A stretch of 64,000 nucleotides of DNA. Source: Marinobacter sp. GTDB taxonomy: Bacteria; Pseudomonadota; Gammaproteobacteria; Pseudomonadales; Oleiphilaceae. Below are positions 47,863 through 64,000 of the stretch, in pieces. The notes under the pieces were generated by a model. That model made no database searches and was not told the DNA's origin. It saw nothing but the letters and a program-made list of their open reading frames with translations. The DNA lies in assembly GCA_030457765.1 (NCBI GenBank), contig JAKDUK010000008.1:1-64000 (forward strand), in the 5' to 3' direction. A program made the translations under genes and the position numbers. Position 1 is the stretch's first letter; each line of letters begins with the position of its first letter.

Positions 47863-48864
47863 TTGCAATATATCCATTGGTTTTCAATGCGAGCCCGCGC
47901 AAACACGGACATGCTGGCCGCAGCAATCCTCGCTCTAGGGCTCTTGTTAGCAACGTTGTCGTGCAACATTGCTGTGGCGGGCGACTCTGTTAATGCAATG
48001 CCTGCGCCTGAGTCACCTGTTAGTCCAGTCGCTGGAAATTCCCTTCCCCACCACGATTATGTTCTGTGGTACCGAAATTACGACAACCCGGCCATTCATG
48101 CACTAGTTGCCCTTGCGCTTGAAAAAACACCTGAATATGGCGAATTCAATATTATTCGCAGCCGCGAGCTTAGCCAGGGCCGTGTGCTACGAGAGCTGGA
48201 GCGTGGGGATCATCGCTTGGTGGATATCGCAAACGTAGCAACAACGGCAGAGCGGGAACATTCCCTCACACCCATCCCTGTACCTGTAGATGGAGGGTTA
48301 CTTGGATTTCGCGTGTGTGTGGTAACACCCGAAAGCCTTCCTGCGTTTAAAGACGTACAGTCCCTGGACGATCTTCAAAAGAAAGGCATCCGAATTGGCC
48401 AAGGCGCTCATTGGCCAGACACCTCAATTCTTCAGGAAAACGATGTGTCGGTTATCACCCACTCCCGCTACGAAATACTCTTTGGAATGCTCAAGAAAAA
48501 CCGCTTTGACTGCTTTGCCAGAGGCGTTAGTGAGGTTTTGCATGATTTAAAGGTTGAGGGTGACCAAGATTTGATCATAGAGCCGAGACTGCTATTGGCC
48601 TATCCTATGCCGTCATATCTATTTGTCGGTCATGATGACTATCTAACGGCGCACAGGTTGCAGTTGGGTATGGAAAGAGCGATTCGGGATGGCAGTTTTG
48701 GCGTGTTTCTGGAGCGGTTTTATGGCACTGCCGTTGCGGCTCTTAACCTTGATGAGCGCACTGTAATTGTGCTGAACAACCCGTTTTTGAGCGAGGAGTC
48801 GGAAAATGTTGGGCGCCAGACACTGAACAATCTGCGCTGGCGCCTTCAACTCCTTAACCGCTGA
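47863..48864 (+). CDS. periplasmic substrate-binding-like protein
   Basis: Signal-like N-terminus, VCVVTPESLPAFKDVQSLDDLQKKGIRIGQGAHWPDT, SBP_bac_3-like organisation. Confidence 0.7.
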   Translation: MQYIHWFSMRARANTDMLAAAILALGLLLATLSCNIAVAGDSVNAMPAPESPVSPVAGNSLPHHDYVLWYRNYDNPAIHALVALALEKTPEYGEFNIIRSRELSQGRVLRELERGDHRLVDIANVATTAEREHSLTPIPVPVDGGLLGFRVCVVTPESLPAFKDVQSLDDLQKKGIRIGQGAHWPDTSILQENDVSVITHSRYEILFGMLKKNRFDCFARGVSEVLHDLKVEGDQDLIIEPRLLLAYPMPSYLFVGHDDYLTAHRLQLGMERAIRDGSFGVFLERFYGTAVAALNLDERTVIVLNNPFLSEESENVGRQTLNNLRWRLQLLNR

Positions 48865-48895
48865 ATCACAACTAAGGGGGTAGCCGAGCTAAAAT

Positions 48896-50782
48896 TCAGA
48901 CTCGAAAACGGGAAACGTTGCCGTCTAAAGTCTTGCCTATTTTCTCAATTTGCCCACTATACACGTCGTTCTCACTTGCCGCGGCAGCCGCATCCTGGCC
49001 TTGATCGGCAATGCGAGTAATCGATGCGTTCAGCTCTTCGGTAACGGATGTCTGCTCTTCCGATGCTGTGGCAATCTGTGATGTCATCTGGCTGATAGAG
49101 GTGATGGCCTCGGCAATTCTATTCAAAGAATCCATGGCATCCTGCGCTTTCTCCATGCTTACGTTGGAGACTGCAGTTGAAGCTTTCATTACCTCCACTG
49201 CATCGTGAGCGCCTTTTTGCAGCCGTTCGATCATGTTATTGATTTCTTCAGTGCTGCTTTGGGTACGCTGGGCAAGGTTTCTTACCTCATCGGCAACCAC
49301 GGCAAAGCCGCGACCGGCATCACCTGCGCGGGCTGCCTCAATAGCTGCGTTCAGGGCCAGCAGATTTGTTTGTTCAGCAATACCCTGAATTACTTCCAGC
49401 ACCGAGGTAATGGAAGTAACGTCCCTGCCTAGTGCGTCTATAACTTCCGCTGCCGCGGTCACTTCATGGGATAATTTTTGAACTGCATCGCGGGAAGCCG
49501 ATACAGTTTCCAGCGAGGCTCGGCTGTCTGCATCGGCCGTGTTGGCTGCATCCGCTGTCTGCAGTGCGTTTTGTGCAATTTCTCCGGCCGCAGCAGACAT
49601 TTCGTTAATCGCAGTGGCAACCATATCCACTTCCGTTTGCTGGCCTTCAACGCTGGTTCGACTGGTTTTTGCTGTCTCTCTCAGGGAGATCACGTTGGTG
49701 GCCAGTTCGTTGCTGCCCTGCTGAACTTCTTGAACCACCTCGTGAATTTTCGCAACAAACTGGTTAAAGCTTGCAGCCAACTGGCCAAACTCATCACGGG
49801 CACTGTCGTCCAGGCGCTGAGTGAGATCGGCATCGTTTGAACCAATATCCGCCATGGCCGTATTTAGCCTGCGAACGGGTGCCATAAGTTTACGAATCCC
49901 AAAGTGAAGCACAACCAGGGAAATCAGCAGACCTGCGATGGCCATAATAAGGCCGGCTATCATGGCACGCTGAACCGGTGCGTGTATTTTCTCTTCGTTA
50001 ACAAACGTGCCCAAGTACCAATCAACACCACGTGCCTGGCTTATATGGTGAAAGCTGGCGCTCCAGGAAACATCGTCACTTTCATAGCTTTGTTCGTCTC
50101 CTCTTAAATTCGGGGCCTTACCAAGCAATTTGCTGATATTTTTACCGATCAGGGCTTCGTCCGGGTGATAAAGAACCTTGCCTTCCTGGCTAATCAGCGC
50201 CGCGTAGCCAGTGTCGGCCAGATTAATAACAGAGAGCTTATCGTCTATGGCTTTAAGAGTTATGTCCGCGGCGGCTACGCCGGCGTTGAAGCCGCTTTTT
50301 ACGGGCGCTAGAGCAGAGATGACAAACTCGCCGGTGTTGGCATCGAAGTAAGGCTCGGTGAACGATGACCTGCCAAGCTCCATGGCCTTTTTATACCAGG
50401 GGCGTGTACGAGGGTCGTAGTTGGTTGGCAAAGAGATCTCGTCTGCCTCTGTTTTCATGAGCATGTTGCCATCGTCGCGGCCGACATACACATCCTTGAA
50501 GTTACCGCCAGTAGACATGGCGTTCAGCAAAGTGCGCGTTTGCTCGTTGCTCTTTGTGGTCATTAGAGCCTTAGCTGTGGCCTCGGTCATCGTCAAGCGG
50601 GTGTTGAGCCAATCGGCAATACTGGCCGTATTCTGCTCTGCAGTGTTTTCAATCAACGCATCCACGTAGGTTTCAGTGGTGTTTTGCAGGCGCAGGTTGC
50701 CAGAAATGGTAAATGCTGCCATTACGAGAATAAGCAGAACGCTAAAGGCAACCAGCAGTTTTTGGCCGAATGAAAGATGCAC
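48896..50782 (-). CDS. methyl-accepting chemotaxis protein (Cache-type sensor)
   Basis: [44 protein letters not shown]; periplasmic Cache; HAMP. Confidence 0.95.
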
Positions 50783-50896
50783 GATGTACTCCCGAATGTG
50801 ATTTAATTAGTTTTCGGCCGCGTGTGCGAAGTCTTTAATACCTTCTGATAAACTTGCGTGAAAAATTCATCTTGCCGCCATACAGGAGCCCGCTGA

Positions 50897-52417
50897 ATGG
50901 CCCATGAAGAGCTGTACCTTAATCTCCGCAACCTAACGCTTGATGATTACGATCAGCTTCAGGTGCTTATGGATCGCGTCTATGACGACATTGGCGGCGC
51001 TTGGCCAAGAGACACCATTAAAGCATTGGTTGAGCAGTTCCCGGATGGCCAGATCTGTATTGAAGACAACGATCAGTTGGTGGCGGTTGCCCTTACTGTG
51101 TCGGTTAAATATGAGCGGTTCAGCAACCCTCATACCTATGACGACCTGATCCTGCGCAACGAACAGATTTGGCACAATCCCAACGGTGATTCGCTTTATG
51201 GTTTGGATGTATTTATTCATCCTGATTATCGCGGCTACCGGCTTGGCCGGCGCTTGTACGAAGCGCGAAGGGAACTTTGCCGTTCTATGAATTTGCGAGC
51301 TATATTGGCTGGCGGTCGTATCCCTGGTTATTTCAAATATTCAGACCAGTACTCACCCGCTGAATACATTGACCGTGTTGATCGCAGGGATATTTACGAC
51401 CCGATTCTCAGTTTTCAGCTGTCTAATGACTTTAAAGTTACCCGGCTAATGCACAAATACCTGCCCGAAGATGAAAAATCCCTTGGGTATGCAACCTTGC
51501 TGGAATGGCAGAACATTCTATATACACCACCGTCTTCAGTTCTCAACGTAAAGAAAACCCAGGTTCGTATGGGCGCTGTGCAGTGGCAGATGCGTGAGTT
51601 TTCCTCCGTAGAAGAGGTGCTTGAGCAGGTCGAGTATTTTGTAGACGCATTGTCTGATTACAAAAGTGATTTTGCGTTATTTCCCGAGTTTTTTAATGCA
51701 CCATTGATGGGCCTTACCGACCAGGTGGATCAAACCCGCGCCATTCGCTTTCTTGCCGGATTTACGGAGCAGTTCCGGGATCGCATGTCGGATATGGCCG
51801 TTAGCTATAACATCAACATTATTACCGGCTCCATGCCGCTGCTTGAAAATGACCGAGTCTACAACGTGTCTTATCTGTGCCATCGGGACGGCCGTGTAGA
51901 TGAACAGCGCAAGATTCATATTACTCCCCATGAACGGCGCGACTGGGTGGTAGAAGGCGGCAATCAATTTGAAGTGTTTGAAACAGATGCCGGGCGGGTA
52001 GCGATTCTTATCTGCTACGACATCGAATTCCCAGAGCTTGGGCGCATTGCAGCCAGCAAAGAAGTCGATATTATTTGCGTACCCTTTTGGACCGACACAA
52101 AGAACAGCTATTTGCGGGTTCGACACTGTGCACAGGCACGGGCAATTGAGAACGAGTGTTACGTTGTGATTACCGGCAGCGTTGGCAACTTGCCGAAAGT
52201 AGAAAACCTTGACGTGCAATACGCTCAGTCATCGGTGTTCTCGCCTTCTGATTTCTCTTTCCCCCACGACGCTGTGATGGCGGAAACAACGCCAAACACA
52301 GAAATGATCATGTTCTCGGATATGGACCTGGAAAAGCTCACACTGGTTCGTAACGAAGGGTCTGTAACCAACCTGAAAGACCGGCGAGTTGATATGTACC
52401 AAATTAACACTAGGTAA
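50897..52417 (+). CDS. bifunctional GNAT N-acetyltransferase / carbon-nitrogen hydrolase
   Basis: HPDYRGYRLGRRLYEARRELC GNAT motif; FALFPEFFNAPL, VAILICYDIEFPELGR nitrilase motifs. Confidence 0.93.
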   Translation: MAHEELYLNLRNLTLDDYDQLQVLMDRVYDDIGGAWPRDTIKALVEQFPDGQICIEDNDQLVAVALTVSVKYERFSNPHTYDDLILRNEQIWHNPNGDSLYGLDVFIHPDYRGYRLGRRLYEARRELCRSMNLRAILAGGRIPGYFKYSDQYSPAEYIDRVDRRDIYDPILSFQLSNDFKVTRLMHKYLPEDEKSLGYATLLEWQNILYTPPSSVLNVKKTQVRMGAVQWQMREFSSVEEVLEQVEYFVDALSDYKSDFALFPEFFNAPLMGLTDQVDQTRAIRFLAGFTEQFRDRMSDMAVSYNINIITGSMPLLENDRVYNVSYLCHRDGRVDEQRKIHITPHERRDWVVEGGNQFEVFETDAGRVAILICYDIEFPELGRIAASKEVDIICVPFWTDTKNSYLRVRHCAQARAIENECYVVITGSVGNLPKVENLDVQYAQSSVFSPSDFSFPHDAVMAETTPNTEMIMFSDMDLEKLTLVRNEGSVTNLKDRRVDMYQINTR

Positions 52418-52533
52418 ACATTGAAGAACCGCCTGAAAGAGTTATCGTATCGTGCTGATGACGTTGCCAAACTTTTGATCAACGTCTATTCTTTAACCAG
52501 AATCAAGCCAGCTTTTACAGAGATTTTGTATTC

Positions 52534-52932
52534 ATGAATGAAGCGTTACCAGATCTTATAGCCCAATTCAGAGTGCGGCAGGGCCTGTTCCGTAAGGAGC
52601 AGGTTGAAGCCGAGCTTTTTGAGCTGGACTCCTACGGTTGCGTTCTAAAGACGGACAAAATGTTCAATCCTGGCGACTCCATTGTGCTGGATCTCATCAT
52701 GAATATGCCATTCGATAACATTCGAGCTGAGAACTTAACCGGGCTGGTCACTGAACGCAGAAAGCACTGCAGCAATTTCTTTTACTCTATTGATTTTGCA
52801 GATTTTAAATCTGAAGGAAATGTCGTTTTAGAAGAAACGTTGCGCCGCATCAGAGAGGTGCTTTCAAAAAAGCAGTCGTTAAGGTCGCGTCGTTCCTCAG
52901 GTTCAATGCCGGGTTTCCGGCAGATGGCCTGA
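52534..52932 (+). CDS. PilZ-like domain protein
   Basis: Small beta-rich protein, GDSIVLDLIMNMPFDNIRAENLTGLVTERRKHCSNFFYSIDFADF. Confidence 0.65.
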   Translation: MNEALPDLIAQFRVRQGLFRKEQVEAELFELDSYGCVLKTDKMFNPGDSIVLDLIMNMPFDNIRAENLTGLVTERRKHCSNFFYSIDFADFKSEGNVVLEETLRRIREVLSKKQSLRSRRSSGSMPGFRQMA

Positions 52933-52973
52933 TCATTATTATTCGTTCTACCTGCCTGCAAGGAGACATCTCT

Positions 52974-53591
52974 ATGGCGAAGAAGCCCAAATCGAACGTT
53001 GATAAAATCGTAAAAAAGGTCAACAAGGAATTTGAGAAAACGTCATCCCAAATCGAAGGCTTGATCAGTGATGCGATGAAGCAGTTCGATACCTTGCAGC
53101 ACCAGGTTCAAGACCCGGTTCGTAAGCTTTTAAAAGAGGTTGACGAGCTTCGAGAGCGGGAAATGAAGCGTTTTAGCGATGAGTTTGAACGGCGCTTGGA
53201 CGAGTTTCACGAACTGCAATCCAGCGTGCTTGAGCGCTTGGGTGTCGCATCCAAGGAAGATATCCTTAAAGCTGAAAAAGAAAGCAAAAAAGAACTCAAG
53301 AAGTCGCCTGCACCCGCCGCCAGTAAGCCTGCCAAGAAGCCGGCTACCAAAAAGGCAGCTCCCAAGAAAGCTGCTGCCAGGAAGACGGCGGCAAAGAAGA
53401 CTGTCGATAAAAGCGACCTTACTCTTGTGAAAGGGATTGGGCCGGCTACGGCAAAGAAAATGAAAGATGCCGGGATTACATCTGTTGATCAGATTGCCAA
53501 TCCATCCCCGGCCGATCAGGAAAAGCTGAATACGTTTTCCAGCATCAAGGGATTCGACCAACTTACAACAGAAGCTAAAAAAATTAACTGA
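52974..53591 (+). CDS. phasin/AlgP-like Lys/Ala-rich protein with C-terminal helix-hairpin-helix
   Basis: Coiled-coil N-terminus; KPAKKPATKKAAPKKAAARKTAAKKT; LVKGIGPATAKKMKDAGITSVDQIANPS. Confidence 0.8.
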   Translation: MAKKPKSNVDKIVKKVNKEFEKTSSQIEGLISDAMKQFDTLQHQVQDPVRKLLKEVDELREREMKRFSDEFERRLDEFHELQSSVLERLGVASKEDILKAEKESKKELKKSPAPAASKPAKKPATKKAAPKKAAARKTAAKKTVDKSDLTLVKGIGPATAKKMKDAGITSVDQIANPSPADQEKLNTFSSIKGFDQLTTEAKKIN

Positions 53592-55867
53592 TGCAAACGC
53601 CTGACCAACCTGTTTTACGGGACATTGTCCTGATTGGTGGCGGGCACAGCCACGTTGGGGTACTCAAACGGTTTGCAATGAAACCGGTACCCGGTGTGCG
53701 CCTGACCCTCATCTGTCGCGATACACACACGCCCTACTCCGGAATGCTGCCCGGCTACGTAGCCGGGCATTACAGCTACGATGATGTGCACATTGACCTG
53801 AGCCGCCTTGCGGAATTTGCCGGCGCGCGCTTTTACCGCGCCGAAGCTGAGGGCATTGATCGCCACAACAAGCGCGTGATCTGCAAAGGCCGCCCGGATG
53901 TTCCCTACGACATATTGTCGATCAATATCGGTTCATCTCCCAGAGTGAGTGAGGTTGAAGGTGCCTCGCAATACGCAGTGCCGGTTAAGCCTATCACTGG
54001 CTTCAACAATCGGTGGCTTGCCCTGCTTTCACGTATTGAAAACCACGAGGGACCACTCACAGTTGGGGTTGTCGGTGCCGGTGCTGGCGGTGTAGAGCTT
54101 ACACTGGCCATGCAGTATCGTCTTAAAAACGAACTGGAGCAGCGAGGGCGCGATTCCGACCAACTACACTTTCACTTGTTTGATGCGGCTGATGAGATTC
54201 TTCCTACTCACACCTCCAAAGTGCGTGAAATCTTCCGCCAAACTCTTTCGGATCGCGGCATAAAGCTCCATCTTGGCTCGCCGGTTCAAAAGGTTAGTGA
54301 AGGATTGTTGTGTGCAGCTTCTGGGGATACCCTGCAAACGGACGAAGTTCTTTGGGTAACCAAAGCAGGTGGTCCAACCTGGCTAAAAGAAACTGGCTTG
54401 GCACTGGATGACGGCCTGTTCCTGCGGGTACGAGACACACTACAAGTTGAAAACGACGACAGTATTTTCGCCGCGGGCGACATCGCCAATATGATTAGTC
54501 ATCCCCGTGAAAAAGCCGGTGTGTTTGCGGTGCGCCAAGGACCACCCTTGGCGGATAATCTAAAACGGATGGCTTTAGGCAAGGCACCCAAGGACTTCCA
54601 TCCTCAGAAAAAATGGCTGGCATTGATCAGCACGGGCGATAAATATGCCGTTGCCTCTCGCGGCGACACGTACTTTGATGGCGCCCTGGTGTGGCGCTGG
54701 AAGGATTGGGTAGACCGCCGTTTCATGGATAAGTTTTCCAACCTTCCAGCCATGGAAGAAACCTCTGCCCTGCCAGATACGGCGGCCGCTCAGAACCCGG
54801 AAGAAGCATCTCAAGCTATATCTGCCGTGGCCATGCGCTGCGGTGGATGTGGCGCCAAGGTGGGCAGCACGGTTCTTTCAAGAGCGTTGGGCGAACTCCG
54901 GCCTATTGATCGGGACGACATTCTTATCGGCTTACATGCGCCAGACGATGCTGCTGTTCTGCGAGTGCCTCCCGGAAAAGCCGTGGTGCATACCGTCGAC
55001 TTTTTTCGAGCGTTTATTGACGACCCTTACACGTTTGGTCGCGTTGCCGCCAACCATAGTTTGGGTGACGTGTTCGCCATGGGCGCCGAAGCTCAAAGTG
55101 CCACCGCTGTGGCCACAGTTCCTTACGGCATAGAATCCAAGGTAGAAGATGTGGTTTACCAGATGATGTCTGGTGCAGTGGACGTGCTGAATGAAGCCGG
55201 CTGCGCCTTGGTAGGCGGCCATACCGGAGAAGGCCGTGAACTTGCCCTCGGGTTTGCGGTGAATGGTTTGATCGATCCCGACGAAGTGATGAGCAAAGGC
55301 GGCTTGCGTGCCGGTGATGCGCTGATTCTTACCAAGCCTATTGGCACCGGCACACTGTTTGCGGCTCACGCCCGTTTGGCTGCAAAAGGCCGCTGGATCG
55401 ATTCCGCTTTGGCCTCCATGGTCCAGTCCAACAAGGCTGCGGCAGATTGTCTTCGTGGCTTTGGGTCCAAGGCCTGTACCGATGTAACCGGTTTTGGCTT
55501 ACTTGGCCACCTTGTGGAGATGACACGACCGTCGGGAGTGGATGCTGAATTGGATCTTTCTGCAATTCCCGTTCTACCGGGTGCAGAAGAAACCGCCGCG
55601 GCAGGCATTCTCAGCTCTTTGCAGCCGGCTAATATACGCTTGCGTCGTGGTATCCGAGATCAAGAGCAGTGGGTGAAGCACCCTCGCTATGCTCTGATCT
55701 TTGATCCACAAACTGCTGGCGGCTTGCTGGCCAGTGTCTCGGCAGATAAGGCAGAAGACTGTGTAAGAGAGCTCAAAGCTCTGGGATACCCGCATACTGC
55801 TGTGATAGGCCGGATAACATCGCAGGATGAGAGCGGGCCAGTTGAGCCAATCACCTTAAAAGAATGA
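53591..55867 (+). CDS. selD: FAD-dependent oxidoreductase fused to selenide, water dikinase
   Basis: N-term IVLIGGGHSHVGVLKRFAMKPVPGVRLTLI (NDH-like); C-term MRCGGCGAKVGSTVLSRALG, GHTGEGRELALGFAVNG (SelD). Confidence 0.95.
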   Translation: MQTPDQPVLRDIVLIGGGHSHVGVLKRFAMKPVPGVRLTLICRDTHTPYSGMLPGYVAGHYSYDDVHIDLSRLAEFAGARFYRAEAEGIDRHNKRVICKGRPDVPYDILSINIGSSPRVSEVEGASQYAVPVKPITGFNNRWLALLSRIENHEGPLTVGVVGAGAGGVELTLAMQYRLKNELEQRGRDSDQLHFHLFDAADEILPTHTSKVREIFRQTLSDRGIKLHLGSPVQKVSEGLLCAASGDTLQTDEVLWVTKAGGPTWLKETGLALDDGLFLRVRDTLQVENDDSIFAAGDIANMISHPREKAGVFAVRQGPPLADNLKRMALGKAPKDFHPQKKWLALISTGDKYAVASRGDTYFDGALVWRWKDWVDRRFMDKFSNLPAMEETSALPDTAAAQNPEEASQAISAVAMRCGGCGAKVGSTVLSRALGELRPIDRDDILIGLHAPDDAAVLRVPPGKAVVHTVDFFRAFIDDPYTFGRVAANHSLGDVFAMGAEAQSATAVATVPYGIESKVEDVVYQMMSGAVDVLNEAGCALVGGHTGEGRELALGFAVNGLIDPDEVMSKGGLRAGDALILTKPIGTGTLFAAHARLAAKGRWIDSALASMVQSNKAAADCLRGFGSKACTDVTGFGLLGHLVEMTRPSGVDAELDLSAIPVLPGAEETAAAGILSSLQPANIRLRRGIRDQEQWVKHPRYALIFDPQTAGGLLASVSADKAEDCVRELKALGYPHTAVIGRITSQDESGPVEPITLKE

Positions 55868-55869
55868 GC

Positions 55870-56856
55870 TTAAAATGTATTTTTGGGGCAGCGCTGCAAG
55901 GCAAGTGAAAGCGCTTGCTCCAGGGATTTCTGTTCTTTTTCCGGCGTGAACTGGCCGGCCAGATAGCCAACTTGTTTGCGTAACTGCTCCAGAAATGCCG
56001 GATCTGTTTCTGCACGTATCAGCCGGTCAGCAAGTGCCTGGGTATCACCTACCGGGTAGTAGCCGGCGTAATCTGCACCCAGTAAGCCGATATTCCCTGC
56101 TATATCAGATGCAATAACAGGCAGACCAGCGAAACAGGCTTCAGATACTACGTTCGCCCCACCCTCCATAGCCGAGCTCATAACAAGTATTTGGCTGTTT
56201 GCCATCAGTTTGCTGGTTTCCTTTTTTTCCAGCTCGCCGAGCCATCTGAAGCGAGGGTTTTCCCGCACCTGTTGTTTTGCGAGGCGGTTCCAGCGCTCGT
56301 TATGAGGTTTGCCCGCACAGGACACTCGAACGCACGAGTTGGCAGGTAAAAGACTGGCTGCCAATGCTGCCCGCAAAGAGTCCTTTTCATCCCGTAAGTG
56401 CCCAATAACACAGACATCAAAGAACTGTGTCTCAGCAGTCGCCTTGAGGGCACATGCTTCAGGCAGGTCAGCAGACTGAAAAAGCGTCACCAACTTATTA
56501 CCAAAACGTTCAGGAATATCATCGCCAACGTTTGCATGTAGACCAATCAATGCATCGGCCGCCTGCATGGAGTAAAGGGTCTGCTCCGGGTATTCGTATT
56601 GGTGCCGGTATATGTCCGTGCCGGTTAACGCGACGATTAAGGGCTTGCCAGGCCAGGTGTTCCGGAAAAGCCGTATGGCCTCGTAGCTGCGCCAGGCATG
56701 AAGTGCAAGCATTAGGTCGCAGGGTTCGCCCTGATACGTTGTAACGATAGACACCTCATGCCCTGAGCGTTGCAGCAATATCTTCCAGCGTTCTGCAGTT
56801 GCCCTGTTGCCAGCCTTCGAGCCGGGGCCGGCTGGCGTAATCATTATGATATTCAT
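55870..56856 (-). CDS. Glycosyltransferase, SenB-like selenosugar synthase candidate (TIGR04348-type)
   Basis: MNIIMITPAGPGSKAGNRATAERWKILLQRSGHEVSIVTTYQGEPCDLMLALHAWRSYEAIRLFR, SSAMEGGANVVSEA; abuts selD. Confidence 0.85.
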   Translation of the reverse strand: MNIIMITPAGPGSKAGNRATAERWKILLQRSGHEVSIVTTYQGEPCDLMLALHAWRSYEAIRLFRNTWPGKPLIVALTGTDIYRHQYEYPEQTLYSMQAADALIGLHANVGDDIPERFGNKLVTLFQSADLPEACALKATAETQFFDVCVIGHLRDEKDSLRAALAASLLPANSCVRVSCAGKPHNERWNRLAKQQVRENPRFRWLGELEKKETSKLMANSQILVMSSAMEGGANVVSEACFAGLPVIASDIAGNIGLLGADYAGYYPVGDTQALADRLIRAETDPAFLEQLRKQVGYLAGQFTPEKEQKSLEQALSLALQRCPKNTF

Positions 56857-57067
56857 AGAATTCTTCGGTACGAGCGATCCCTTTTAGGGCCTCGCTAGAA
56901 TTTTGTTAGGCTTGCGTGGCATTTTAACGGAATAGTGCCTTGGTACCTGACCTATTTAAACCCATTCTCCGTATAGGTGTTCAGGGTTCGGATGAATCAG
57001 CGTATCCTGCAACTCGCAGATAGTGTAGTTCTGCTTTATCAACCAGATAACCGATAAAGGATTTCAA

Positions 57068-57943
57068 ATGGCTTTTAATCTTATACGGAAATTGATGCTT
57101 TCCAGCGTTTTCTGCTTCACCGCTACTGCGGTGTCGGCGGAAACCTTTGTATTTACGGCAATCCCGGATGAAGACGAAACCAAGCTTGTGGAGCGTTTTC
57201 GTGGTGTCGCAGATTACTTGTCTGAGCAGTTGGATGTAGATGTGCGTTATGTCCCGGTGAAGTCTTACGCGGCTGCCATTTCAGCGTTCCGCAACAACCA
57301 GGTACAATTAGCATGGTTCGGCGGCCTCTCTGGTGTACAAGCTCGCCGACTGGTATCTGGCTCAGAAGCCATTGCACAAGGTGTTGAAGACGAAGCATTC
57401 CAAACCTACTTTATTGCCAATACCAACACAAAGATTGAACCGGCAGACAAATTGTCAGATCTGAAAAGCCAGCTCAAGGGTAAAACCTTCACCTTTGGCT
57501 CTAAAGGCTCAACCTCTGGCCGCCTCATGCCCGAGTTCTACGTGCGCGACACCTTTGATGCAAAGCCTGAGGATGTGTTCTCCCGCGTCGGTTTCAGCGG
57601 CAACCACACTCGCACCCTTCGCCTGGTGGAAGCCGGCACCTACGATGTGGGCGCCCTTAACTTCAAGGTTTGGGATAAAGAGCTGGGTGACGGAAACGTT
57701 GATACCGATGCTGTTCAGATTATCTGGAAAACGCCGACTTACCCGGATTACCAATGGACCATTCGAGGTGATGTGAACAAGCGGTTTGGTGACGGTTTCA
57801 AGCAGCGGGTTACCGAAGCCTTGTTGAACCTCAACGATCCCGAACTTCTGGAAAGCTTTCCGCGTTCAGGCTTTATTCCTGCATCCAACGATGACTATGA
57901 ACCGATTCGTAAAACAGCTGAAGAGATCGGAATACTCGATTGA
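57068..57943 (+). CDS. putative selenate/selenite ABC transporter substrate-binding protein
   Basis: PhnD-like FTAIPDEDETKLVERFRGVADYLSEQLDVDVRYVPVKSYAAAISAFRNNQVQLAWFGGLSGVQAR; linked to selD/senB. Confidence 0.87.
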   Translation: MAFNLIRKLMLSSVFCFTATAVSAETFVFTAIPDEDETKLVERFRGVADYLSEQLDVDVRYVPVKSYAAAISAFRNNQVQLAWFGGLSGVQARRLVSGSEAIAQGVEDEAFQTYFIANTNTKIEPADKLSDLKSQLKGKTFTFGSKGSTSGRLMPEFYVRDTFDAKPEDVFSRVGFSGNHTRTLRLVEAGTYDVGALNFKVWDKELGDGNVDTDAVQIIWKTPTYPDYQWTIRGDVNKRFGDGFKQRVTEALLNLNDPELLESFPRSGFIPASNDDYEPIRKTAEEIGILD

Positions 57944-58593
57944 TGACAAGCTTCGATCTTTCTGGCCTGACGGCTTCATTCAGTGGCAAGCGGGTTATTG
58001 GCCCGCTGTCGCTGCGTATTAACACGGGTGACAAAGTTGCTCTTGTGGGCAAAAGCGGTGCCGGCAAGTCCACGCTTATTCGCTTGATTCATGAGCGTGT
58101 TAACCGAGACTCTTCCCTTATCCCCCAGGATTTAGGTTTGGTGAACGCCCTTTCGGTGTTCCATAACGTGTTCATGGGGCAATTGGATAAGCACCCCACT
58201 TGGTATAACACGGTCACCCTCGCCCGTCCGTTCTCGAAAGACCGAAATGAAGTACATACCCTGCTGAATACATTGGGTATGACAGAAAAGCTTTGGACAC
58301 CTACGGCGTCGCTTTCTGGTGGCCAACGCCAGCGTGTCGCGATTGCTCGGGCCCTATACCGAAACGCAGCTGTTCTGCTAGCCGACGAGCCGGTTTCCGC
58401 TCTCGACGGCCCCATGGCGAATTCAGTCATGACACATCTGCGGGATGGTTTTTCAACCAGTATTATTGCGTTGCACGATGTAGAACTGGCCTTACGCTAT
58501 TGCACCAGAATCGTTGGCATACAGGGTGGCCAGGTTGCTCTGGATCAGCCTAGCGAGAACCTCACAACTTCAGACATTATGTCTCTTTATTAG
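57940..58593 (+). CDS. ABC transporter ATP-binding protein
   Basis: Walker A GKSGAGKST, LSGGQRQRVAIARAL, LLADEPVSALD. Confidence 0.93.
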   Translation: MMTSFDLSGLTASFSGKRVIGPLSLRINTGDKVALVGKSGAGKSTLIRLIHERVNRDSSLIPQDLGLVNALSVFHNVFMGQLDKHPTWYNTVTLARPFSKDRNEVHTLLNTLGMTEKLWTPTASLSGGQRQRVAIARALYRNAAVLLADEPVSALDGPMANSVMTHLRDGFSTSIIALHDVELALRYCTRIVGIQGGQVALDQPSENLTTSDIMSLY

Positions 58594-58610
58594 GTAGCGC
58601 AGCCGGCTTC

Positions 58611-60077
58611 ATGTTCTCTTCTCCAACGGTTCGTACCAGCTTTATTTTTCTTGCCATCGCCTTGGTAGGGCTACTGTTTGCGGATATTGCGATCACCGCA
58701 TCCAACCCCTGGCAGGATTTGGGCAACTTTTTTCTCGGCATCATCACCCCAAATTTTTTCAGCAGCGAAGGGTTGATGACCGCACTATTAAGAACCGTCG
58801 CCTTTGCGTTTGTTGGCGTAGCTCTAGGCAGTATCGCCGGCTTCCTGTTGGCATTGGTTTACCGGTCACTACCGGTGCGGATCTTTTGTGCGTTTATACG
58901 CGCCATTCACGAGCTTTTCTGGGCATTGATCTTTCTGCAGTTTTTTGGATTTCACCCACTTACCGGTGTGCTGGCCATCGCTATTCCCTATGCCGGGATT
59001 TTCGCCAAGGTGTATTCGGAAATACTAGAGGAAGTAGACCCGGAGCCCGGCAGAGTTTTGCCACCAGGTACTGGAAATATCACAGCTTTCCTCTACGCCC
59101 GCATTCCAGATTGCTGGGTGAAAATTCGCACCTACACGGCTTACCGACTGGAATGCGGTCTTCGCTCCAGTGCAATTTTAGGATTCGTGGGTCTACCTAC
59201 GCTTGGTTTTTATCTGGAAGCTTCATTTTCTCAGGGCCTGTATTCCGACGCCGGCGCAATGCTGATCCTGTTTTACGTACTGATCGCCACCATGCCACTG
59301 TGGGTCAAACCAAAGCTCTTGCCGGTGTATGTACTTGGAGCGCCCTTCTTTCTAGGGGAAGGTCTGCCGATTGTATGGGGTAACGTGCAGCGTTTTTTCA
59401 CAGAAGACATAGTGCCCGCACCGCTGCGTAACGGGGAAGGTTTAGCCGGGCTAACACCCTGGCTGAATGACCTGATGATCAACCAGGCCGTGCCCGGCAT
59501 CTGGAATACCATTGTGCTCACCCAAATTGCGCTTGTGGCTTCCGGCATCCTCTCGTTGCTTGCATTTCCGTTGATTTCCAACCACTTTGGCGGGCCTTTA
59601 CGACGCAACGCCGGCCATGTCGTTCTGGTAATTGCACGCTCCACGCCGGAATACATTTTGGCCTATATTCTGCTGCAACTCTGGGGCCCCTCAATGTTGC
59701 CTGCGGTTGTAGCGTTGGCTCTGCACAACGGCGGTATTATTGGCCATCTCATTGGGCGGCAAACCAACTCCCTCAACCTTCGTGCCGATGCCCCTACCGG
59801 ATTTGATCGATATAGCTGGGAACTGGTACCCCGGGTGTATCGTTCTTTCTTGGCGTTTTTGTTTTATCGCTGGGAAATCATTATGCGGGAAACAGCTATT
59901 TTGGGGATTTTGGGTATCTACACACTCGGTTTCTATGTAGACAGCGCCATCCAAAACATACGATTTGATCGTGCCATGGTACTGATACTGATCACCGCCC
60001 TGCTGAACATTGGGGTGGACACGATTGGGCGCTATATCCGCCGTAAGCTTGCCCTGCAAACCATGCCGACCTGCTGA
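58611..60077 (+). CDS. ABC transporter permease, two fused PhnE-like domains
   Basis: Duplicated permease cores (about 58770-59300 and 59480-60010). Confidence 0.88.
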   Translation: MFSSPTVRTSFIFLAIALVGLLFADIAITASNPWQDLGNFFLGIITPNFFSSEGLMTALLRTVAFAFVGVALGSIAGFLLALVYRSLPVRIFCAFIRAIHELFWALIFLQFFGFHPLTGVLAIAIPYAGIFAKVYSEILEEVDPEPGRVLPPGTGNITAFLYARIPDCWVKIRTYTAYRLECGLRSSAILGFVGLPTLGFYLEASFSQGLYSDAGAMLILFYVLIATMPLWVKPKLLPVYVLGAPFFLGEGLPIVWGNVQRFFTEDIVPAPLRNGEGLAGLTPWLNDLMINQAVPGIWNTIVLTQIALVASGILSLLAFPLISNHFGGPLRRNAGHVVLVIARSTPEYILAYILLQLWGPSMLPAVVALALHNGGIIGHLIGRQTNSLNLRADAPTGFDRYSWELVPRVYRSFLAFLFYRWEIIMRETAILGILGIYTLGFYVDSAIQNIRFDRAMVLILITALLNIGVDTIGRYIRRKLALQTMPTC

Positions 60078-60112
60078 AACGCGCTTCCAGAGGCCGGGTT
60101 ATCTGCTTGTTT

Positions 60113-61522
60113 TTACCGCTTACACTCTATGTGCCCGGTTACCATATCGGAGCCGCCAGACACATTACTCAAAATGTCAGATTTGGCAAAAATACCCGAG
60201 CGGTGTATCAGAGAAATGCCCACATAACAGTTTTGAACCGCTTTGTTGTCAAACATCAGCCGAAGCGGCACATCAAACTGCCCTTCAAGGTAATTTAGAA
60301 AGTGTGAGGTGTTCTCCTCGCGTTTTGCCTGCTTAACCTGCTCTACGTAGGGAATGTTCGTGGCGTAAGAAAATCCGAAGCCTATGCCGGCCCGAAGCCA
60401 CTCTTCTTGAGTCCACGGCGAGTGGGCCGTTGTCATTGCCATCACATAGGCGTTGTATTCGCCAAAATCACTTTGATTTCCGTTCTCCAGGCGCCGGTTT
60501 GCGGAAACCTTGCCCCAGTAATCAATGTACTTGCCATCAGAAATCAACTTTCCCAGGGTTAGCCCAACCATATAGGCGTGCACATCCTTGCTGCGCCTTA
60601 GGGTGCCTGTGAGCGTTCTAGTGAATGGGCCTTCCGCTTGATAGCCCGTATTCAACCGCCATGACCACTCACCAGATCTTCCCGAACCCCGGTTTTTAGT
60701 GGAATCATCGATGGCGTTGCCAAAAAAGTATGCAAATCCCAACGAAGCCGCGCTCTGCTGCGATTGATCCACCAGTGGGCTGTTAAAAATTCCGCTGTCT
60801 ACATGCTGAGAGGCTATGTTTGAAAAAACCATCAGGCGTGAGGTGACCTGATAGGAGGCATTTACACCACCACGCCAGAAACTGGCAGAGCCGGGTTGGT
60901 AGAATGGGCGGTTTGGCAGTGCCTCGCCCGCATTAACGCCGTAGTAGTAGTCTGTAAAGTCTCGATCCTGGTAAATATAGCTGATAAAGGGCGACACAAA
61001 CCACCGACCAGATTCCCAGGCATACTTGTATGTAAAGTCCCATTCATAGCCATTATGGTTGCCCAAAATGTCATTGACCCATGTGGTCGACAGTTCTCCC
61101 CAGTCGCCGCTTAAGGTGAAAGATACGCCGGAGTCCACAGTCTGGTTACGGTCGCCCAGGCCTTCAAAATAGTCGTTGGCGTCGGACTCAAGCCGGTTGA
61201 ACCGATACCTGGCGAGTACATCCACTTTGAGCCAGTCATTATCGAAAACGTGGATACCCGCAGACGTACCGTGTGCAAAGAGCCACTCACCTTCATACAA
61301 GTACAAAGGTAGAAGATCCACTTCATTGCCCGCACTTTGACTGGCAATGTTGCTCACCCCGGTATATGGGCTGGTTCCGCCACGTATTGCGGCCCCAAGG
61401 CCGACAGTTCCGGCGGGTATGTCTGTAACCGACATACGGGTTTCCGGAACGCCTGCAAAGCAAACATCGGCCATTAGGTACAGCCCCAAAACAATACTGG
61501 GCCCGATGAATTTTCTATACAT
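60113..61522 (-). CDS. MipA/OmpV-family outer membrane protein
   Basis: Signal peptide, beta-barrel pattern; AIRGGTSPYTGV..., LPLYLYEGEWLFAHGTSAGIHVF. Confidence 0.82.
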   Translation of the reverse strand: MYRKFIGPSIVLGLYLMADVCFAGVPETRMSVTDIPAGTVGLGAAIRGGTSPYTGVSNIASQSAGNEVDLLPLYLYEGEWLFAHGTSAGIHVFDNDWLKVDVLARYRFNRLESDANDYFEGLGDRNQTVDSGVSFTLSGDWGELSTTWVNDILGNHNGYEWDFTYKYAWESGRWFVSPFISYIYQDRDFTDYYYGVNAGEALPNRPFYQPGSASFWRGGVNASYQVTSRLMVFSNIASQHVDSGIFNSPLVDQSQQSAASLGFAYFFGNAIDDSTKNRGSGRSGEWSWRLNTGYQAEGPFTRTLTGTLRRSKDVHAYMVGLTLGKLISDGKYIDYWGKVSANRRLENGNQSDFGEYNAYVMAMTTAHSPWTQEEWLRAGIGFGFSYATNIPYVEQVKQAKREENTSHFLNYLEGQFDVPLRLMFDNKAVQNCYVGISLIHRSGIFAKSDILSNVSGGSDMVTGHIECKR

Positions 61523-61556
61523 GATTTATTTCCAATATACCGAATACGCCATTTGC

Positions 61557-62987
61557 TTATAAAACGGGGCCAATGGTTGCGATAACGTTGTGCCATATCC
61601 GTCTGTGGTAGTGCCAGGCAAGAACCGTTGGCAAAGCAACCACTTCGGAACGATTGATGTAACTCTGCTGACGCTCCAAAATTGCTTGAGTAATGGCCTT
61701 GTCCTGCAGAAGAATGTTGTTCTCGTAATTCAGATCGAAACTGCGTAAATCCAGATTTGAGGAACCGATAAGACTGATTTTACCGTCGATCGTGAGAGTT
61801 TTTGCATGAAGAAGCCCGCCTTTGAATTCATGGATAATACAGCCTGCATCTAGCAGCCGGTGATAATAACTGCGGCTAGCAGCCGCGACAATCCAGCTGT
61901 CATTTACTTTTGGAAAAATCAGCGACACTGACACACCTCTGTACGCAGCCGCGCACAGAGCTTCAAGAACCGTTGCGTCTGGAACAAAGTACGGCGTAGA
62001 CAGTGTCAGTTCAGTTTGCGCACAGGCCAGAAGGTTGGCAAAAAGTTGGGGCGTGGCTCCGTGGCGCTCTGTTGGCCCAACGCCCATCACCTGGGCTGGG
62101 AAGCCCCCTTCTGCTGGTTGTGAATACAGGGCGATACAATCCAGGGTTTGGTTGGTGGCGTGCATCCAGTCACTGGCAAACAGCAACTGGTTTTGAACCA
62201 CAACCGGCCCGGTAAACCGAAGCATAATATCAACCCAGGGTCCGTACTTGGCTTTAACGAGAAACTCCGGGTCTGCTGAATTACGGCTGCCGCAATAGGT
62301 AATACGTGAATCAATCACGGTAATCTTGCGGTGGTTCCGAAGATCTAGCCGGCTGGTAAGCAACGTGTGAATGGGGTGTTTCAATGATAATGCCACAGCC
62401 AGGTGCACACCCGCGGTTTTCATGCGCTGCCAAAGCGCAGAGTTAATCATCGCACGGGACCCAAGCCCATCAGCCATGGCACGGCACGTAACGCCTCTTT
62501 GCGCCGCGCGTATTAACGCCTCGGCAATCGTGTGGCCGGTATTGTCTCCAAGCCAGATGTAATACAGCACATGCACGTGATCTGTGGCCGCGTCTATGTC
62601 AGCCACCATTCGATCCAGTGTTTCGTCGCCATCGGCCATTAACTCGGCCGTATTGCCAATTGAAGGATGAAACCCATTAATCGATCCGGCATAACGGAAC
62701 GCAGGACGGTACACCGGGTCAATAAGCGCCTCAGTGTTAGCTGCCTCCCCCATAAACCAGGATGCTTTAGACTGAATTTCCTCAAATATTTCTTTGTGGC
62801 GTTTGTCTGCTCGGTTGCCCACATCTACTTCGCCGAACAGAAAATAAATGGCGCTACCAAAATAAGGCAAAAGGTTAAGAACAATAAACCAGGCAAGCCG
62901 GCCCGGGGGAGACAGATCATCACGGAGCAAAATCCGAATCGTGAAAGTAATAACCAGTAGTGTGTGGAGTACCAGAATAACGGTCAT
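61557..62987 (-). CDS. cls: cardiolipin synthase / phospholipase D family
   Basis: Two HKD motifs: DLRNHRKITVIDSRITYCGSRN and HAKTLTIDGKISLIGSSNLDLRSF. Confidence 0.93.
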   Translation of the reverse strand: MTVILVLHTLLVITFTIRILLRDDLSPPGRLAWFIVLNLLPYFGSAIYFLFGEVDVGNRADKRHKEIFEEIQSKASWFMGEAANTEALIDPVYRPAFRYAGSINGFHPSIGNTAELMADGDETLDRMVADIDAATDHVHVLYYIWLGDNTGHTIAEALIRAAQRGVTCRAMADGLGSRAMINSALWQRMKTAGVHLAVALSLKHPIHTLLTSRLDLRNHRKITVIDSRITYCGSRNSADPEFLVKAKYGPWVDIMLRFTGPVVVQNQLLFASDWMHATNQTLDCIALYSQPAEGGFPAQVMGVGPTERHGATPQLFANLLACAQTELTLSTPYFVPDATVLEALCAAAYRGVSVSLIFPKVNDSWIVAAASRSYYHRLLDAGCIIHEFKGGLLHAKTLTIDGKISLIGSSNLDLRSFDLNYENNILLQDKAITQAILERQQSYINRSEVVALPTVLAWHYHRRIWHNVIATIGPVL

Positions 62988-63164
62988 CAGGTTCCCTTTG
63001 AGCTGCTGAGGTCATCGCACGAAGGTTACCTATCTGCGATGTTGGTCACAATTTCTATCTTTGGATTGAGTTTAAAGGCGTTTATACCGCAAAGGTTGCG
63101 ACAACCAGGGGATACAATCCGTTACACTCCCGACATACTCTGCAATATTAAGGTAGCCCCTCCC

Positions 63165-63734
63165 ATGATCAACGGATTTGTTGCGTTCACTCAAGCCGGA
63201 CTACTGGTTTTGCTTGCGGCCCTGGCGTGGCGAATGCTGATGTTATCGCGCCACGAGCCTTTATCGGCTCACAGCAGACATCAAACGGCACTGAAAACAC
63301 ATAGCGAAAAACCACCACTGCGGAAGCAGAAGAGTCCTACGTCAACGAATCGTACAGAGTTGTTCACCCACCTGCATATCCTGGCGGGGCTTCAAGAGCG
63401 GGACTGTCGAATAAGTGGGCTGGAACTTAGCCAGGCGCCAGGATCAGTTCGAGCGTACGCTGCGGCCTGGTTATACGGCGCTGCTTGTGCTCTGTGCGGG
63501 CAATCAGAGCGGCACAGCGATGCGCTTGCAGGTCTTGTGGCACAAATTGTCAGCCGAAGGACCGGAATTCGTCAGGCTGAGGCCGTACAAACCATTGCCA
63601 CGCTTACCTCATGCGGAGTGCTATTAGCCTGTTTTCGCGCCGGGCTAGAGGGTGCCGAATACTGGCACCGCCACCAGTATGTTCAACCACAAAGCAGCCT
63701 TTATGCTGCCATTACCGCGAACGCACTGATCTAG
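63165..63734 (+). CDS. hypothetical protein with N-terminal TM segment
   Basis: MINGFVAFTQAGLLVLLAALAWRMLML; start at internal ATG of the 62964 ORF. Confidence 0.55.
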   Translation: MINGFVAFTQAGLLVLLAALAWRMLMLSRHEPLSAHSRHQTALKTHSEKPPLRKQKSPTSTNRTELFTHLHILAGLQERDCRISGLELSQAPGSVRAYAAAWLYGAACALCGQSERHSDALAGLVAQIVSRRTGIRQAEAVQTIATLTSCGVLLACFRAGLEGAEYWHRHQYVQPQSSLYAAITANALI

Positions 63735-63740
63735 CCGTTT

Positions 63741-64000
63741 TTAGTGCTTGCTACGTTGCTCCAATGTCCAGTCTGTTCCCAGCTGAACCGGCTCTGTCAG
63801 CTCTGACTGGCCTGCTGGCACCCCCGAAACTGCCGGGCGGGTATAGGCGCCGTCCTCTGTAGATTTCATAGAATCAACATCCACGGAGAGAACCAAATAA
63901 CTCGCTCCATCCCACTCCACCTTAGCTCGAGGAGCTAAGCCGAAAATAAAGCGGCAATAGTCTAACTTCAACTGTATTAAATCCTGTTCCGCTTTGTGAA
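63741..64000 (-). CDS. hypothetical protein, 5' end beyond the window
   Basis: Frame remains open upstream of 63971 to the window edge (..HKAEQDLIQLKLDYCRF). Confidence 0.5.
   Translation of the reverse strand, partial: HKAEQDLIQLKLDYCRFIFGLAPRAKVEWDGASYLVLSVDVDSMKSTEDGAYTRPAVSGVPAGQSELTEPVQLGTDWTLEQRSKH

Follow-up and report, generated by a model that had tools for sequence, protein, structure and literature searches.

What is made by a locus that would import selenium, activate it and place it on a sugar, when no SenA can be seen beside it? The locus lies in a 64-kb stretch of DNA that was analysed as a whole (the window), within contig C59 of a Marinobacter genome (G000, here called the host genome) whose 3.17-Mb, 147-contig assembly is 86% complete. 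An earlier reading, made without database searches, had described a compact selenium locus composed of a SelD fusion, a SenB-like gene and a binding protein-ATPase-double permease operon, without visible SenA, and had regarded it as a self-contained module whose product could be a selenosugar or another undescribed selenometabolite. Our results point to a different answer, namely that the block is very probably the selenosugar front end of the ovoselenol pathway, which genes elsewhere in the genome would complete in trans.

The selenium block and its neighbourhood

All five genes of the locus are intact between positions 53591 and 60077, so that both the composition and the coordinates of the sequence-only reading were right:

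53591..55867, + strand: FAD/NAD(P) oxidoreductase-SelD fusion, 758 aa, predicted to make selenophosphate (TIGR03169 and TIGR00476 over cut-off)
55870..56856, - strand: SenB selenosugar synthase, 328 aa (TIGR04348 and catalytic residues)
57068..57943, + strand: ABC importer substrate-binding protein, 291 aa, putative selenium oxyanion binder (TIGR04553)
57940..58593, + strand: ABC importer ATPase, 217 aa (PF00005; top named match PhnC)
58611..60077, + strand: ABC importer double permease, 488 aa (two PhnE-like stretches, TIGR01097)

The selD and senB genes are convergent with a gap of 2 nt, senB and the binding-protein gene are divergent and 211 nt apart, and the binding-protein and ATPase genes overlap by 4 nt; the convergent pair and the divergent operon had both been noticed before and are confirmed by measurement. 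A neighbourhood comparison found the block in genomes of the genus and in named Marinobacter contigs, and since it is kept across them the arrangement is not due to chance. The nearest named matches are Marinobacter contigs with the same block, their SenB being 72-76% identical. Upstream of selD, at window positions 50897-53591, lie genes for a GNAT-carbon-nitrogen hydrolase fusion, a 132-aa protein and an HHH-domain protein, which also occur in most of the genus genomes examined. Two MAG contigs, L020 (labelled Flavobacteriales) and L022 (labelled Rhodospirillaceae), also encode this SelD fusion together with SenB and the importer, and no OvsA/SenA match was found within the contig stretch examined in either. 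An Rfam scan of positions 48000-64000 gave zero matches and a tRNA scan of the whole 64-kb window zero tRNAs, while a scan of 55700-60300 for promoters and terminators returned zero promoter-like sites and terminator-like sites at about the shuffled mean.

SelD makes selenophosphate, and the activation step ascribed to the fusion earlier is borne out by profile scores of 505.8 bits for TIGR03169 (cut-off 310) and 303 bits for TIGR00476 (cut-off 125), together with the retention of the catalytic Cys420/Lys423 in the motif GCGAK. The fusion is the sole SelD found in the host genome. Its assignment to TIGR04369, 'fusion_not_SelD', was rejected, the score of 472.9 bits being below the cut-off of 700 and the catalytic motif being present. 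In G211 and G251 (L105, L107) there is no fused SelD between the HHH-domain gene and senB; both genomes encode a free-standing SelD elsewhere.

SenB joins the selenium of selenophosphate to a UDP-sugar. The glycosyltransferase of the block scores 395.7 bits against TIGR04348, whose curated equivalog cut-off is 300, and 161.6 bits against the solved SenB. The published catalytic residues are kept, with N20, T23, H58, R61, T83, T85, D86, R155, K158, E231 and E239 of Variovorax SenB identical here; V157 and H235 are replaced by E and N, a change found in most relatives too. Residues for selenophosphate and for the UDP-sugar, K158 key among them, were described previously (PMC10891094). By every test available at the level of sequence the gene is a true SenB, as had been proposed, and the profile searches suggested at that time for TIGR04348, TIGR04553 and SelD all came out over their cut-offs.

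The SenA-type enzyme and the product of the pathway

That no SenA is visible holds for the locus and fails for the genome, where a profile search with the SenA model NF041186 found a match at C72:12808-14103 (431.1 bits, cut-off 420). Three genes outside the block are relevant to what follows:

C72:12793-14118, minus strand, on another contig than the block: OvsA, 441 aa
C95:15324-16124, start uncertain: candidate OvsM, a stand-alone OvoA-type methyltransferase (OvoA_Cterm, 309.6 bits)
C104 (L005:721-2886): full-length OvoA, the ovothiol enzyme, 721 aa

OvsA reportedly attaches selenium to histidine with the use of O2, and ovoselenol is said to be a selenium antioxidant described in 2024. The C72 enzyme scores 605.3 bits against the solved OvsA 8u41, compared with 190 against the solved SenA and 188 against EgtB; it is 61% identical to OvsA and in our tree forms a clade with it at 100/100 support, outside the SenA clade. 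All three histidines of the OvsA iron site are aligned in it, and it has Met/Gln/Ala at the signature positions where SenA has Tyr/Asn/Phe, the same three positions that are changed to the SenA-like Tyr/Asn/Phe in the OvsA variant 8ux5. By score, phylogeny and residues, the enzyme is OvsA and not SenA. OvsA is given as the ovoselenol enzyme of Kayrouz et al. 2024 (doi 10.1038/s41557-024-01600-2) where that work is cited in PMC13188914. Because the genome has OvsA, ovoselenol is a likelier product than the selenosugar or undescribed selenometabolite suggested before. The SenA family model alone cannot separate selenoneine from ovoselenol producers, since the C72 OvsA passes its cut-off. The SenA-type enzymes of G001, G047 and G083 (L110, L111, L112) have Tyr/Thr/Tyr at the signature positions, as against Tyr/Asn/Phe in SenA, and this active-site variant sits in blocks with EgtD.

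We sampled 295 genomes of the order for comparison. Sixteen encode a SenB that passes the cut-off, and precisely these 16 also encode a homologue of the host OvsA scoring at least 289 bits (the next match has 175.6 bits), a coincidence with a chance of about 1e-26 if genomes were independent, shared ancestry making the real figure less extreme. Internal stops in some OvsA-type matches were taken as terminal; in G170, the one checked, the end of the match is the end of the open reading frame. In eleven of the 16, members of the genus, OvsA is encoded away from the block, in most cases close to purH, purD or a Kef-type gene, and all 11 have an OvoA-type methyltransferase domain, stand-alone in 10 and only within OvoA in G251. 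The other five, from three other families, have the SenA-type enzyme inside the block beside SenB, with EgtD present and the OvoA-type methyltransferase absent. Among the relatives, the same conserved front end is combined with either of two back ends, for selenoneine or for ovoselenol. In G147 and G191 (L192, L193) the fused SelD and the importer operon are immediate neighbours, senB being missing from between them, and SenB, OvsA and the methyltransferase were all not found in these two genomes, a joint absence that makes the boundaries of the pathway testable.

It could be argued that the SenA-type enzyme uses hercynine and that the block supplies its selenosugar for selenoneine, considering that the enzyme is over the NF041186 cut-off (431 versus 420 bits) and that in related genera this block occurs along with SenA and EgtD. 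EgtD is required for hercynine, hence for selenoneine; it was not found in the host genome (in its 86% complete assembly) and is absent from nine of the 11 OvsA genomes in all, the eight others being 99-100% complete. In both OvsA genomes that do have EgtD it adjoins a separate EgtB-like gene. We reject selenoneine as the product on the clade and residues of the C72 enzyme and the missing EgtD, and regard it as most improbable. A second alternative, in which the block stops at the selenosugar or at some undescribed compound derived from it and OvsA acts separately, would fit the lack of any later-step gene in the block, the location of OvsA on another contig and the finding that SenB alone yields selenosugars in vitro (PMC10891094). 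This too we hold to be very unlikely, however, given that SenB and the OvsA/SenA enzyme coincide in exactly 16 of the 295 genomes, that G147 has lost both together, and that the SenA-type enzyme is inside the block in five genomes.

In the ovoselenol pathway as we picture it, the importer would take up a selenium oxyanion, presumably selenite, which would be reduced to selenide; the SelD fusion would then form selenophosphate, the selenium of which SenB would move onto a UDP-sugar. The resulting selenosugar would be used by OvsA on C72, which would join selenium to histidine with O2, and the C95 OvoA-type methyltransferase would N-methylate the OvsA product to give ovoselenol. Against this reading, OvsA and the methyltransferase are unlinked to SenB in the host genome. 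Contrary to what was first thought, the block would not be self-contained and would work with genes for OvsA, the candidate OvsM and MnmH on other contigs. A gene scored absent from an assembly that is 86% complete may lie in a gap.

The C95 methyltransferase is 58-60% identical to OvoA C-terminal domains and 47-50% identical to the type that is adjacent to OvsA in other genomes. We infer its role as OvsM and treat it as a candidate, since it is closer to the OvoA C-terminal domains and a full-length OvoA is also present. Two stand-alone types occur among the OvsA genomes, with zero genomes having both: the OvsA-adjacent type in G019, G061, G094 and G291, and a type near an LLM-type oxidoreductase gene, the closer of the two to the OvoA C-terminal domain, in the host genome, G122, G170, G211, G231 and G271 (loci of the two types: L089:9325-10125; L090-L092, L099; L217-L221). 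Both types would serve as OvsM. As the host genome encodes full-length OvoA as well as OvsA, sulfur and selenium versions may coexist there.

The same SelD probably supplies MnmH, the tRNA selenouridine enzyme. The genome search for mnmH/ybbB that had been advised found MnmH on C144 (347.7 bits, cut-off 219.75); the search advised for SelA was also run, and SelA was not found in the 86% complete host genome. SelA is present in one of 18 genomes, that of a genus member (G122:C6:568699-570063, L161), and PMC5029168 likewise reports the selenocysteine trait from only one Marinobacter. With MnmH present, SelA absent and the OvsA-pathway genes present, the selenium of the host would go to tRNA selenouridine and, most likely, ovoselenol.

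The importer and its substrate

The binding protein scores 422.2 bits against TIGR04553 ('putative selenate'; cut-off 250) and fails the PhnD cut-off (TIGR03431; 153.3 versus 261.1 bits). The ATPase is PhnC-like with 167 bits, below the equivalog cut-off of 266.1, and the permease, with its two PhnE stretches, has 206.1 bits against TIGR01097, just under the cut-off of 216.7. The TIGR04553 family is found in 81 of the 295 genomes, all 16 SenB genomes included. We also sampled 18 genomes without SenB from families other than that of the host, and in eight of them the importer operon adjoins selD and/or mnmH. The importer had been called dedicated to the module; its co-location with the selenium genes stands, and the word dedicated is not supported, because the SelD fusion and the importer persist together in G147 and G191 without SenB, OvsA or the methyltransferase.

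The solved proteins closest to the binding protein are picocyanobacterial PhnD1 (7s6g and 5lq5), both of which pass the TIGR04553 cut-off, and the phosphate-contacting Y44, S124-T125-S126, H156, D203 and Y204 of 7s6g are all identical in it. Selenite and phosphite are alike in shape, and selenite would suit the geometry of the PhnD1 pocket. PhnD1 prefers phosphite over phosphate and seems to require three trigonal oxygens, a tyrosine capping the fourth position; the PhnD1 hosts tested did not grow on phosphite, and its expression was independent of phosphate (PMC10284923). The main text of that paper never mentions selenium. We tentatively suggest that the family of the importer may be one of widespread selenite importers, marine picocyanobacterial PhnD1CE included, and that both would carry selenite. 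If this is true, the real cargo of a well-conserved ocean transporter, so far published as one for phosphite/phosphate, would be selenite, which might explain the published phosphite paradox of PhnD1.

The opposing explanation, in which the importer takes up phosphite, phosphate or phosphonate and its place beside selenium genes is incidental, draws on the pocket shared with 7s6g and 5lq5, which bind phosphite, phosphate and methylphosphonate in vitro. We consider it rather unlikely, as the operon is present in 16 of 16 SenB genomes, has the fused SelD as its neighbour in both G147 and G191 and is next to selD and/or mnmH in the SenB-less genomes mentioned above, as the binding protein is below the PhnD cut-off and as phosphite does not support growth of PhnD1 hosts.

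Comparison with known systems

The ovoselenol pathway with OvsA is already known, and what is new here is a further member with a split layout. The host genome encodes an orthologous OvsA that keeps the active-site residues of that enzyme, along with SenB, SelD and a candidate N-methyltransferase; it differs in that the genes are spread over three contigs, in that SelD is an oxidoreductase fusion and in that its methyltransferase candidate belongs to the OvoA C-terminal type. A new compound need not be invoked when a selenosugar block lacks SenA, as the last enzymes can be encoded elsewhere. The selenoneine pathway (SenA, SenB, SenC) has the same SelD and SenB steps, and in relatives of three other families the five genes of the block are accompanied by SenA and EgtD, but the C-Se enzyme of the host is OvsA and EgtD was not found in its genome. 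As in the known fusions of SelD to an N-terminal oxidoreductase (TIGR03169 with TIGR00476), both parts are over cut-off and the Cys/Lys motif is kept; this is the usual SelD of the genus, is found without SenB too and shows no notable difference here. Picocyanobacterial PhnD1 (7s6g, 5lq5; PMC10284923) is 40-44% identical to the binding protein, belongs to the same NCBIfam family and has a matching anion pocket, but it was published as a phosphite/phosphate protein, whereas the transporter described here sits with selenium genes and has a double permease.
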